Source: Flavitalea plasmicola
GTDB taxonomy: Bacteria; Bacteroidota; Bacteroidia; Chitinophagales; Chitinophagaceae
DNA: 64,000 bases
Assembly (NCBI RefSeq): GCF_030546645.1
Contig: NZ_JAUOTO010000002.1
Span: 930,001-994,000 of the forward strand
Direction: 5' to 3'
The translations under genes were made by a program, and so were the position numbers. Position 1 is the first letter of the stretch. Each line of letters opens with the position of its first letter. This document shows, one piece after another, positions 3,743 through 63,445 of the stretch. The notes beneath the pieces were generated by a model, which was given only the letters and a program-made list of their open reading frames with translations, did not search any database and had not been told where the DNA came from.

Positions 3743-4318
3743 ATGAACAAGCTAACCTTTGCTTTGCTGACAATCTCCGCGCTGTCCATCGCTACTTATT
3801 CCCACGCACAGAGTGACGCCGACATGAAAGCCATGATGGCATATTCCACTCCCGGAGACATTCATAAAATGATGGCGAAATCGGTAGGCACCTGGACCTG
3901 CGCTATCACCATGTGGATGGCGCCCAACACACAACCAATGAACAGCACGGGGGAAATGAAAAATGAGATGATCCTGGGCGGCAGGTACCTGAAAGGGACC
4001 AACACCGGTAATTTCATGGGCCAACCCTTCGAAGGCATCAGTACAACCGCCTATGACAATGCCAAGAAGATCTTTTTGAATAATTGGATCGATAATATGG
4101 GAACAGGCATGATGAACCTCACGGGTACCTGGGATGCAGCCACCAATAGCATCACTTTCACAGGGACCATGCTTGACCCGGCTTCCGGAAAAGACATTCC
4201 CGTCCGGGAGGTTTTGAAATTTGTCGACGACAATCACCAGACCATGGAAATGTATGCCAATGCCGCGACAGGAGGACAGGAGTTCAAGACGATGGAGATA
4301 AAGTTTACGAGGAAATAA
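3743..4318 (+). CDS. DUF1579 family secreted protein
   Basis: The predicted product has 191 residues. I placed the start at the ATG at 3743 (MNKLTFALL), because it gives a normal signal peptide ending near SHAQ; the open frame reaches further upstream without a better start. The body matches DUF1579: a WTCAITMWM strand, a GGRYLKGTNTGNFMGQPFEG segment, then FLNNWIDNMGTGMMNLTGTWD. The fold is expected to be a lipocalin-like beta-barrel and no activity is established. It lies 24 bp from the convergent rhamnosidase gene. No clear Bacteroidota -7/-33 promoter was found in its 250-bp upstream region. Confidence 0.87.
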   Translation: MNKLTFALLTISALSIATYSHAQSDADMKAMMAYSTPGDIHKMMAKSVGTWTCAITMWMAPNTQPMNSTGEMKNEMILGGRYLKGTNTGNFMGQPFEGISTTAYDNAKKIFLNNWIDNMGTGMMNLTGTWDAATNSITFTGTMLDPASGKDIPVREVLKFVDDNHQTMEMYANAATGGQEFKTMEIKFTRK

Positions 4319-60027: not shown

Positions 60028-60837
60028 TTATGGACGCCCCAACCACAGCAGCGCATCTATGATCAGCTTTTCCTCCATCTCGTTCTTCAACGTAAAAGAC
60101 AGCTCTTTATCCGTCTTGTTGTCGTAATCGATGTCGTTATGCCCCATATTGAAATAGATCATCCGATATTTCTTATTGGTCCAGGCCACCGGATAATAGC
60201 CGCTGTGCCAGATCTCATGTGGCTTCGGACCGGTGCCCAGGGGAAAGCTGGAAGAGTCGATAGATAAAAGGATGCGGATGTCCGGATTGATGCGTAAATC
60301 GTTCGACCACCGGTACCATTCGTTAGGCGCCGAAGAGAATGTCAAAGGCAAATGCCTCACCGCGGGGTGGCCCGGATCCTCCACCCTAAGCACAGCCGAA
60401 GTAGGATGCCAGGTATTGCTGACATAGCTGCCGGAGCCGAGAAATTCATTGTGATACCAGTCCCAATTCTGCGGGAAGTCTGAAGGCGTGAGTGCAAAAG
60501 CGGCAAAATGGAATCCCATCCATCCACCGCCCTGCTTCATGTACCGCTCGAACGCGGCCCTTTGCTGCGGATCGTCCGGCCGGGTATCCAGGAACACTAC
60601 CACCTGGTAACGGGCCAGGAAGCCGTCGTTCATGTTACTCCAGTCATTCGTGGAATCATAAACAAACCCATATTTCTTTGCCATCTCCGGGAACCACCGG
60701 TTCGCCTCATGTACAAAGCTGATATGCGCCTTATCCTCCCGGGCGGTATAGAATGCGATGACCTTAAAAGGCGCTTGTGCCCTAGCGATCGTAATACCAA
60801 CTAAAAAAACCGATAATATGATGGCGCGCCTATGCAT
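60028..60837 (-). CDS. ThuA domain protein
   Basis: The 269-residue product starts at the ATG at 60837 (MHRRAIILSVF), giving a signal peptide ending near ARAQ. The ThuA domain follows: KVIAFYTAREDKAHISFVHEANRWFPE, VVFLDTRPDDPQQRAAFERYMKQGGGWMGFH, WHSGYYPVAWTNKKYRMIYFNMGH. ThuA belongs to the glutamine-amidotransferase-like fold and is linked to trehalose or sugar use. The 5' end overlaps the zwf stop by 8 bp, so it is likely translated from the zwf transcript. Its substrate is unknown. Confidence 0.9.
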   Translation of the reverse strand: MHRRAIILSVFLVGITIARAQAPFKVIAFYTAREDKAHISFVHEANRWFPEMAKKYGFVYDSTNDWSNMNDGFLARYQVVVFLDTRPDDPQQRAAFERYMKQGGGWMGFHFAAFALTPSDFPQNWDWYHNEFLGSGSYVSNTWHPTSAVLRVEDPGHPAVRHLPLTFSSAPNEWYRWSNDLRINPDIRILLSIDSSSFPLGTGPKPHEIWHSGYYPVAWTNKKYRMIYFNMGHNDIDYDNKTDKELSFTLKNEMEEKLIIDALLWLGRP

Positions 60838-62341
60838 GTACGCTTCTTTCCGGCAGTCTGAACCATTCTTTGGCATAGGGCTTCAACAGGGCGTCGGCTG
60901 CCGCCGGGCCCCAGGTGCCCGATTTGTATAAATGCAGCTGCTTGGATGGATATTTCTTCCAGGCGTCCAATATCGGCATCACCACCTTCCAGGCAGCCTC
61001 TACCTGGTCGGCCCGCATGAAGAGCGTAGCATCCCCTTCCAGCACATCCAGCAACAATGCTTCATAGGCCTCCGGCAGGTTGGCCGTATAAGCATCCTGG
61101 TACATAAAATCCATCTCCACCGGGAACAGCTTCATTTCCAGGCCGGGTACCTTGCTCTCGAAAAGCAGGCTGATCTCCAGTTCCGGCTGTATGCTGATGA
61201 TAAGCCGGTTAGGCACAACGTCGTCTCTGAAGATCTTATGAGGAGAATCCTTGAATTGGATGACGATGACGGAAGATTGTTTTGGCATTGATTTACCGGT
61301 ACGCAGAAAGAAAGGCACCCCCTTCCACCTTTCGTTGTCGATGAAGAGCCTGGCCGCTGTGAACGTCTCTGTATTGCTGCCGGACGCCACCTGCTCCTCC
61401 TCCCTGTAACCCGCACGGTGAATACCATCGATATCGCCGGCTGTGTATTGTCCGCGAATGACATTCTTAAAGATCTGGTCGGAGGAATACATCTTCACGC
61501 TCTTCATAACTTTCGTTTTGGCATCCCGGATATGCTCCGCCTCATATGCCTTGGGGCATTCCATGGCAATGATGCACACCAATTGCAGCAGGTGATTCTG
61601 GATCATATCCCGCAAAGCGCCGCTGCTGTCATAATAACCCCCTCGTTTACCCACACCTACCTGCTCCGCGAGGCTGATCTGTATATGATCGATGTACTGA
61701 CGATTCCACAACGGCTCGAACACATAGTTGGCAAAGCGGAAAGCCATGATATTCTGCACCGTCTCCTTACCTAAATAATGATCTATCCGGTAAATCTGCT
61801 TTTCTGCGAATCGCTTGACCAGGAACTTATTGAGCTTTCGGGCTGTTTCCAGGTCCGTACCAAATGGCTTTTCAACGATGATCCGGTCCAGCAGCGGCTT
61901 GGCTGCCAGCTTATGTTTGCTCAGCCCATCCGCGATGATCTCTATAAAACGGGGAGCCGTGGCAAAATAAAACATCCGCGTTGCCCTGATCGAATGCAGC
62001 TTATCAAAGCTCTCCATCATCGCCTTCAGTCCCGTATAGGTCTCCTCTTTTAAAAAATCGCCCTGGATATAATATATATGCGCGGCAAAACTATCCCACC
62101 TGCTTTTATCTGCCACGCCATTACGGCTAAAGGAATTGACACCCGTCAGCAGATCGTTCTTGAATACCGCCTCATCAATGCCAATGGCATCTACGCAATA
62201 GATAGCGAATTGCGCCGGCAGGTGGCTCTCGATATACAAATTATACAATGCGGGAATAAGCTTGCGATGCGTCAGGTCACCTTTCGCGCCGAAGATCGTG
62301 ATATTGGCGCAGTTAACTTTTTTAAGGGAAGTTGCTTTCAT
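60830..62341 (-). CDS. zwf: glucose-6-phosphate 1-dehydrogenase
   Basis: This 503-residue protein has the NADP-binding motif ITIFGAKGDLTHRKLIPALYNLY. The hallmark active-site segment is YRIDHYLGKETVQNIMAFRFANYVFEPLWNR, with the catalytic His in RIDHYLGKE. The C-terminal domain is complete. It oxidises glucose-6-phosphate to 6-phosphogluconolactone at the start of the oxidative pentose phosphate pathway. A gnd gene is not adjacent. It precedes the ThuA gene on the same strand. The 369-bp gap upstream holds a structured repeat element. Confidence 0.97.
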   Translation of the reverse strand: MKATSLKKVNCANITIFGAKGDLTHRKLIPALYNLYIESHLPAQFAIYCVDAIGIDEAVFKNDLLTGVNSFSRNGVADKSRWDSFAAHIYYIQGDFLKEETYTGLKAMMESFDKLHSIRATRMFYFATAPRFIEIIADGLSKHKLAAKPLLDRIIVEKPFGTDLETARKLNKFLVKRFAEKQIYRIDHYLGKETVQNIMAFRFANYVFEPLWNRQYIDHIQISLAEQVGVGKRGGYYDSSGALRDMIQNHLLQLVCIIAMECPKAYEAEHIRDAKTKVMKSVKMYSSDQIFKNVIRGQYTAGDIDGIHRAGYREEEQVASGSNTETFTAARLFIDNERWKGVPFFLRTGKSMPKQSSVIVIQFKDSPHKIFRDDVVPNRLIISIQPELEISLLFESKVPGLEMKLFPVEMDFMYQDAYTANLPEAYEALLLDVLEGDATLFMRADQVEAAWKVVMPILDAWKKYPSKQLHLYKSGTWGPAAADALLKPYAKEWFRLPERSVHA

Positions 62342-62500
62342 TCGTCAAATATGTCTTTTCAATAATTAATAAATATACCACTAAATGGTATTGATTGGCA
62401 AAAAAAATAATGCTACCTTAGCCCTCATTTCCCTTATATCTACGCCTGTCACTGCGCTATTTTACGTGACGATTCACTCATTTTATTATTCAGACCTTAG

Positions 62501-62666
62501 TACCGGCAAAGACAGCCTGCGCAATAATAGTGAACCACAGGTTCACTGGCTGTAACCGCAAGGTTACGAGCGAGAGGGAGCGTGTCGAAGCAGCTCCGCC
62601 GAAGCTCCCATCATTAGCGCTATTGCGCAGGATGGCTAATTTCCGATAAAGACAGCCTGCGCAATA
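62501..62666. other. structured intergenic repeat element
   Basis: The 369-bp gap 62342-62710 contains no gene, and this part of it is highly structured. A 19-bp perfect direct repeat (62508-62526 and 62648-62666) is spaced 140 bp apart. An inverted copy of its 11-bp core lies at 62621-62631. The result is a pair of 11-bp terminal inverted repeats around 62516-62631. Inside are a hairpin with 8-bp stem and 3-base loop (62529-62547), a hairpin with a GCAA tetraloop (62552-62567) and a GGGAGC/GCTCCC pair (62576-62609). A MITE-like element or a structured RNA fits these features. The rest of the gap is AT-rich and holds no other signal that I see. Confidence 0.6.
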
Positions 62667-62710
62667 CCAACAAATGTTCACATTGTGTTAACTCAAAACT
62701 TGTGTTTTTT

Positions 62711-63445
62711 ATGAAAAAGAACCATTGTCTTATGCTCGCGTTGTGCCTTACCGTGGTTTCAACAGGACTTTTCGCCCAAAGAAGGACATTTGACGTCAAG
62801 GACGCCAAATTCACCAAAGAAGACTTTGCCAAACTGAAAGGCGTGCTGAAAGGCGCCGACCCTTCCACCTACTCCGTCCAGTACATCGTGAATGGCAGGG
62901 TGGTTGACAAAATGGGTTCCGCGAGCTTCAGCAGGCTCTCCACCGTGGCCATTTACCACAGTCCTGGCAGCCTTAACTCCATCAATGAGGTCGTGACCAC
63001 GATCAGCAATTATGTGAAGACCGTCCTCACCTCCAAATTCAACGAGGCGTATCCGGAGAAAGTAACGGCCATCAACAGTCTGCTGGAACAAACAGCCATT
63101 ATGGGACGGGCCAATGCCATGAAAGTGGATGTCAGGGAAGCCAACATCAGCAAGGACGATTTTGAAAAGCTCAAGGCGACCCTGAGTGGCGCCGATCCTT
63201 CCACCTATTCGCTGATCTACACCGTCGATGGCAAACAGGTAGACAAGGCAGGGTCCGCCAGCTTCAGAAGCCTCACCACGGTCGGAGCATACCATAAGCC
63301 CGGCTCGAACAATTCAATTAACGAGGTGGTCACCACCATCAGCAACTACGTAAAGACAGTACTCACATCGAAATTTGACCAGGCTTATCCCGAAAAGCTT
63401 GCAGCGTTCAACCGGCAGCTGGAAAGCTTTGCCGCTCAGCGTTAA
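62711..63445 (+). CDS. secreted protein with two tandem homologous domains, function unknown
   Basis: The 244-residue product starts at the ATG at 62711 (MKKNHCLMLALC), giving a signal peptide ending near LFAQ. The mature part is two copies of a roughly 100-residue unit (about 62783-63090 and 63121-63430). Shared blocks include GADPSTYS, NSINEVVTTISNYVKTV and LTSKF. The units are close in protein but the codons differ widely, so the repeat is old and kept by selection. No family was recognised. It lies downstream of the structured element and upstream of a strong hairpin. Confidence 0.85.
   Translation: MKKNHCLMLALCLTVVSTGLFAQRRTFDVKDAKFTKEDFAKLKGVLKGADPSTYSVQYIVNGRVVDKMGSASFSRLSTVAIYHSPGSLNSINEVVTTISNYVKTVLTSKFNEAYPEKVTAINSLLEQTAIMGRANAMKVDVREANISKDDFEKLKATLSGADPSTYSLIYTVDGKQVDKAGSASFRSLTTVGAYHKPGSNNSINEVVTTISNYVKTVLTSKFDQAYPEKLAAFNRQLESFAAQR

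Follow-up and report, generated by a model that had tools for sequence, protein, structure and literature searches.

An expanded copy of a dispersed, probably mobile palindromic element beside zwf in a member of the Chitinophagaceae

HUH/Y1 transposases recognize the folded single strand of REP sequences and of IS200/605 ends. Among Rickettsia palindromic elements (RPEs), many are inserted in frame within genes (PMC3733652). CGTC-tagged repeats have been reported from the Bacteroidetes too (PMC3733652); Bacteroidetes Y1 subclasses with atypical flanking structures have also been reported, as have in-frame REP insertions in tnpA_REP genes (PMC6006769).

In this study, we analyzed a 64,000-nucleotide stretch of DNA (the window) and conclude that the feature beside zwf is very probably (a probability of roughly 0.8) a copy of a non-autonomous mobile palindromic element, ~90 nt long in its minimal form, that occurs in one genus of the Chitinophagaceae and in a sister genus. 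The element resembles RPEs in being a short palindromic repeat that lies in frame inside genes, here PAP2-like, GreA-like and ABC ATPase genes whose orthologues are empty; however, it comes from another phylum, has three hairpins and conserved linkers and grows by nested hairpins, the RPEs being compared by their description. With REP, BIME and REPIN sequences and their TnpA_REP (RAYT) transposases it shares dispersed hairpins, located mainly in gaps, and a genome that encodes candidate HUH transposases. Of the REP hallmarks, GT[AG]G at the hairpin foot was absent from the aligned copies and flank counts (YCA before the element, ACATTT at its end), a REPtron, in which copies flank tnpA_REP, was not seen at 18 Y1 loci (one weak match, in G020), and the unit is not 20 to 40 bp long but ~90 nt with three hairpins, giving net insertions of 90 to 96 nt. 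Like MITEs, the element is short, non-autonomous and dispersed, with some copies in or near genes, but it has no terminal inverted repeats, and no parent insertion sequence was found among the Y1 loci searched. Its 8-bp stem beginning with A/T pairs recalls the CGTC-tagged repeats (PMC3733652), from which it differs in having a hairpin 1 loop of 3 nt rather than 4 to 5, no visible CGTC tag and a place within a larger unit.

These small mobile palindromic elements apparently constitute a new family, RPE- and REP-like in behavior and lacking most of the REP and MITE hallmarks tested. A literature search on such repeats in Chitinophaga, Puia and the Bacteroidetes returned only general REP, MITE and RPE papers; subscription journals were mostly outside its scope, and an earlier description is possible. 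If our reading is correct, RPE-like in-frame palindromic insertions are present in the Bacteroidota at high copy numbers, in many species and with empty sites. The many copies and empty sites make the mechanism of movement and the fate of the inserted peptides, tolerated or used, testable.

The gap beside zwf and its element copy

The gap lies, as the first-pass annotation had placed it, between zwf (60830-62341, minus strand; G6PD domains by Pfam) and a plus-strand open reading frame (ORF) at 62711-63445; because the two are on opposite strands, it is divergent. No convincing gene was found within it, in agreement with the earlier view that it codes for nothing. The ORF consists of two similar halves, had no hit in a Pfam search and had no match among the other 32 genus genomes searched. 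In the nearest relatives (L059 and L060) the neighbor of zwf is an ABC transporter ATPase gene, so that the gene order upstream of zwf is different in the window (60830-62710).

The two 19-bp direct repeats (AAAGACAGCCTGCGCAATA) noted at the outset were located exactly 140 nt apart, at 62508-62526 and 62648-62666, and are part of a longer repeat (31 nt, 84% identity; 62496-62526 versus 62636-62666). The inverted copy also exists, although its arm is 17 nt long (62621-62637) and not 11 bp as first given; this arm is 88% complementary to each of the two direct copies. In the spacer (62342-62710) the longest exact direct repeat is 19 nt, compared with at most 14 nt in 1,000 dinucleotide shuffles. 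Folding of a 171-nt stretch against its own shuffles gave z scores of -4.8 as RNA and -5.3 as DNA, and none of 200 shuffles equaled it. Hairpins, including the previously described one with a GCAA loop, lie at 62529-62547, 62552-62567, 62568-62607 (nested) and 62621-62666. The features are as follows.

62489..62526, plus strand: probable 3' remnant of a tandem neighbor (TTCAGACCTTAG...AAAGACAGCCTGCGCAATA); 31 nt, 84% identical to 62636-62666, offset 140 nt
62528..62669, plus strand: whole element copy, with bounds from covariance models R1 and R2
62529..62547, plus strand: hairpin 1, AGTGAACC-ACA-GGTTCACT; both-side changes in 8 of 8 pairs and 98.8% of cells paired (76 sequences)
62548..62551, plus strand: GGCT, corresponding to GNCC, the mini-hairpin's 5' strand; the mini-hairpin reads GTCC-GAA-GGAC in minimal copies
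62552..62567, plus strand: inserted module, GCAA-loop hairpin GTAACC-GCAA-GGTTAC; the module is shared with other copies and with further places in the genome
62568..62607, plus strand: inserted module, nested double hairpin GAGC-GAGAG-GGAGC-GTGTCGAAGCA-GCTCC-GCCGAA-GCTC, supported by genome matches and covariation
62608..62620, plus strand: linker carrying CATTAG at 62612-62617, with good conservation in the family alignments
62621..62666, plus strand: hairpin 3 (the 3' hairpin), TATTGCGCAGG...CCTGCGCAATA, with TAATTT in the loop; both-side changes in 13 of 13 pairs, 96.8% paired

The inverted copy and the second of the 19-bp direct repeats both belong to hairpin 3. The first direct repeat falls within the upstream remnant, where it is preceded by CAGACCTTAG, which resembles the family linker. 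Counted from the base before hairpin 1 (62527) through the last base of the 3' hairpin (62666), the interval is 140 nt, which is also the distance between the repeats; the simplest reading of the upstream repeat is therefore as the 3' end of a tandem neighbor that is otherwise lost. Because the family covariance model found no match in this remnant on its own, the tandem origin is something that we infer, and the upstream 19-bp repeat is probably what remains of a neighboring element. Close tandem pairs of elements occur elsewhere (L217). As a dispersed unit the 19-bp sequence itself was ruled out, since the genome contains no further copy with fewer than two mismatches; the unit that is repeated genome-wide is the hairpin element.

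Family membership, distribution and the covarying fold

In its own genome (8.7 Mb, 19 contigs), a DNA search at a permissive cutoff placed the stretch at 16 sites and its core at 24. The minimal unit was exposed by a 24-mer of the 5' hairpin, which occurred at 18 places, compared with none for a reversed-pattern control. This unit, of ~90 nt, consists of a hairpin of 8 bp, then the GNCC-GAA-GGNC mini-hairpin, a linker containing CATTAG and, last, a hairpin of 13 bp; written out, AACGAACC-GGA-GGTTCGTT, which is also the commonest family form of hairpin 1, precedes GTCC-GAA-GGAC, the CATTAG linker and a long hairpin, for example CCGGAAAACGGGTT...AACCCGTTTTCCGG.

Membership of the window copy was assessed with covariance models from which it had been left out. 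The first (R1), built from ten minimal copies, matched 62528-62669 with 35.9 bits (E of 3e-4 in 565 kb), and the second (R2), built from 78 matches in the genome itself and related genomes, matched with 43.7 bits (E of 1.5e-6 in 565 kb), these E values being rough because the models were quickly calibrated. It is the only match within the window. The stretch at 62.53-62.67 kb is thus one copy of a dispersed repeat family. The search for further copies that had been proposed as a check found them in the genome and its relatives: at E≤0.01 there were at least 53 matches in the genome itself and at least 110, 125, 102 and 75 in relatives. At the same threshold, 15 of the 33 genus genomes matched; in a set of 149 genomes of the family, matches were confined to the genus and a single sister genus, represented by two genomes with 19 and 8 copies, and among 296 sampled class genomes, searched with stricter filters, only the genome under study was matched. 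Relatives of zwf place the group in the Chitinophagaceae. Lineage-specific presence of copies could be due in part to loss.

When copies were compared side by side, the hairpins recurred in one order. In an alignment of 76 distinct sequences, 97.8% of the cells were paired, 22 of the 25 pairs showed changes on both sides, 389 cells had both sides changed (82 in shuffles), and the covariation score was 0.62, versus 0.17 for shuffles and at most 0.12 for slid partners. This alignment tilts toward structure because it was fitted to the model; an alignment of ten copies made with MAFFT, which was not so fitted, gave both-side changes in 11 of the 13 pairs of the long helix. The covariance analysis called for at the outset therefore finds covarying stems: they drift in sequence yet keep their pairing, while GAA, CATTAG and TA-ATTT, in the loops and linkers, are conserved. 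The three-hairpin structure is under selection.

Insertion sites, mobilization and competing explanations

Three genes of the genome, named from a reading of their translations, carry in-frame copies: a PAP2 phosphatase-like gene, a GreA-like gene and an ABC ATPase gene, the last with the element reversed. At the orthologous positions G006 and G021 have no element, the net difference being +96 nt, +90 nt and +90 nt, respectively. One gap site (L181) is empty in both of these genomes, and two others (L187 and L183) are apparently empty in G006, where the alignment is poorer. Near the start of an ATP-grasp-like gene (L185, ~1501-1542), a truncated copy occupies the same codons, in frame, in three species and, as we read it, is a fixed peptide insertion. 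Long open frames span only 8 of 74 copies but 247 of 294 control positions (84%) taken 300 to 380 nt away; gaps are thus strongly favored or insertions into coding sequence are removed. The types of gap occupied approximate the genome background. The 5' flank has C at position -2 in 48 of 74 copies and A at position -1 in 44 of 74; YCA precedes the element, and its 3' end reads ACATTT. At most CA or CAT is common to both sides, with the qualification that the empty sites are 70 to 85% identical and the junction is ambiguous by a few bases. The tRNA-tuf gap (L184, ~1501, with L228 and L225) contains an element in the genome under study, an apparent element facing the other way in G021 and debris of another kind in G006, and it looks like a repeated landing site.

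The idea of a MITE-like mobile element, raised when the locus was first annotated, is largely supported as regards mobility, given the copies, the covarying stems and the empty orthologous loci. The element is not a MITE in the strict sense, because it lacks terminal inverted repeats (the consensus 5' end is not the complement of the 3' end), the 11-bp arms proposed as its ends are the stem of one hairpin, and no transposase is linked to it. Two Y1 (PF01797) genes in the genome are no more than candidates for mobilizing it, and they bear on the possibility, which we consider unlikely although it deserves serious attention, of a REP/BIME-type repeat proper that is moved by a tyrosine (Y1, HUH) transposase of the REP-associated type resident in the genome. 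One gene, IS200-like and of ~160 aa, lies between aroG-type and aroB genes in the seven genus genomes looked at (single copy at L139 1423-1902, G000:C14:780607; also L303-L308); being single copy, in a conserved place and with element copies mostly absent around it, it looks domesticated. The other is a ~200-aa ORF (L140 1441-2040, G000:C16:212035); the ORF ahead of it is related looking and seemingly lacks the HxH motif. By our reading of the search, the ~200-aa ORF is present in ~13 of 15 element-bearing and ~2 of 18 element-free genus genomes, a pattern in which, as in the other Y1 presence patterns, clade and genome completeness are confounders. The single-copy state of the Y1 genes, the aroG-type/aroB location and this distribution all agree with a REP/BIME repeat, as do hairpin DNA that prefers gaps and has no terminal inverted repeats and the atypically flanked Y1 subclasses and in-frame REP insertions cited above (PMC6006769). 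However, in addition to the confounding, the consensus has no GT[AG]G foot, and the ~200-aa protein apparently has, by eye, H at the expected catalytic Y position. G008 has at least 75 copies yet no IS200-like gene. A search with R1 of 18 Y1 loci (2 from the genome itself and 16 from relatives) yielded one weak match (G020, 27.8 bits) and no copies adjoining the genome's own genes; apart from that match, no transposase-bearing relative with the ends of the element was found among these loci.

A small or regulatory structured RNA serving many transcripts, which had also been suggested, we judge to be improbable. The strong fold and the covariation would suit such an RNA, and some copies lie directly upstream of genes (mreB-like and tuf), but copies occupy every gap type in both orientations, and coding sequence on either strand, with no clear terminator- or leader-like preference relative to genome gaps. 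Moreover, there is no downstream gene in common, copy number is very variable between species, and the Rfam 15 covariance models had no match over 62380-62760 up to an E of 1. Scarcely any weight attaches to a palindrome specific to the region upstream of zwf, an operator or terminator with chance repeats: the location fits, but close relatives have another gene beside zwf and no element there, and the window copy belongs to a family whose independent models match it, which contradicts such specificity.

For the mobile palindromic element that we favor, we propose the following scheme, with membership, copy number, covariation, empty sites, in-frame copies and modules at the mini-hairpin as its directly observed parts. 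The preserved trait would be the folding of one strand into three hairpins in fixed order, and an enzyme acting in trans would recognize this folded single strand, as HUH/Y1 transposases do. Covariation by itself fits single-stranded DNA and RNA alike. Insertion would proceed without a long target duplication, at a preferred site with YCA before the element and ACAT at its 3' end, the exact cut being presumed. Insertions would survive mostly in intergenic gaps and at times in genes whose reading frame the unit leaves open and unshifted; the element is presumably mainly selfish. Copies would enlarge as hairpin modules insert at the GNCC-GAA-GGNC mini-hairpin, and the window copy would have grown in this way, with what is left of a tandem neighbor upstream of it. 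A more elaborate account, which we offer tentatively and regard as doubtful, is that of a lineage-specific element selected as a three-hairpin single-strand fold, moved by a resident domesticated HUH transposase and evolving by recursive module insertion into its own mini-hairpin, which would give host proteins in-frame peptide segments, one of them fixed in three species.

Hairpin modules

In the window copy and several others, the GNCC-GAA-GGNC mini-hairpin is opened by inserted modules, namely, the GTAACC...GGTTAC hairpin and a nested GANN-GAGAA-GGAGC-GTGTCGAAGCA-GCTCC-GACGAA-NNTC. The insertion point in the window copy is directly after GGCT (62548-62551). The nested double hairpin was found at 24 places in the genome at E≤10, 15 of them at E<0.01; in 11 copies, 97% of its cells were paired, and none of 500 shuffles matched the covariation score. 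The nested hairpins first described here, the GCAA hairpin among them, are thus inserted modules together with the family's own hairpins. This growth would provide a visible route to long structured intergenic mosaics, such as that between the fabF-like and rnc-like genes.

Long arrays of nested modules, with CGAAG motifs on one strand, were seen at L141 1620-2380 and L142 14900-15621; the former fills the gap between the fabF-like and rnc-like genes on contig C15. Nested modules also recur in a second context (L149, ~2720-2790, and L150, ~3840-3900, minus strand; also L011 and L017), in which TATAACC lies ahead of the modules and, in L149 and L150, a common stretch follows them. The modules in this TATAACC context apparently represent a second element class.
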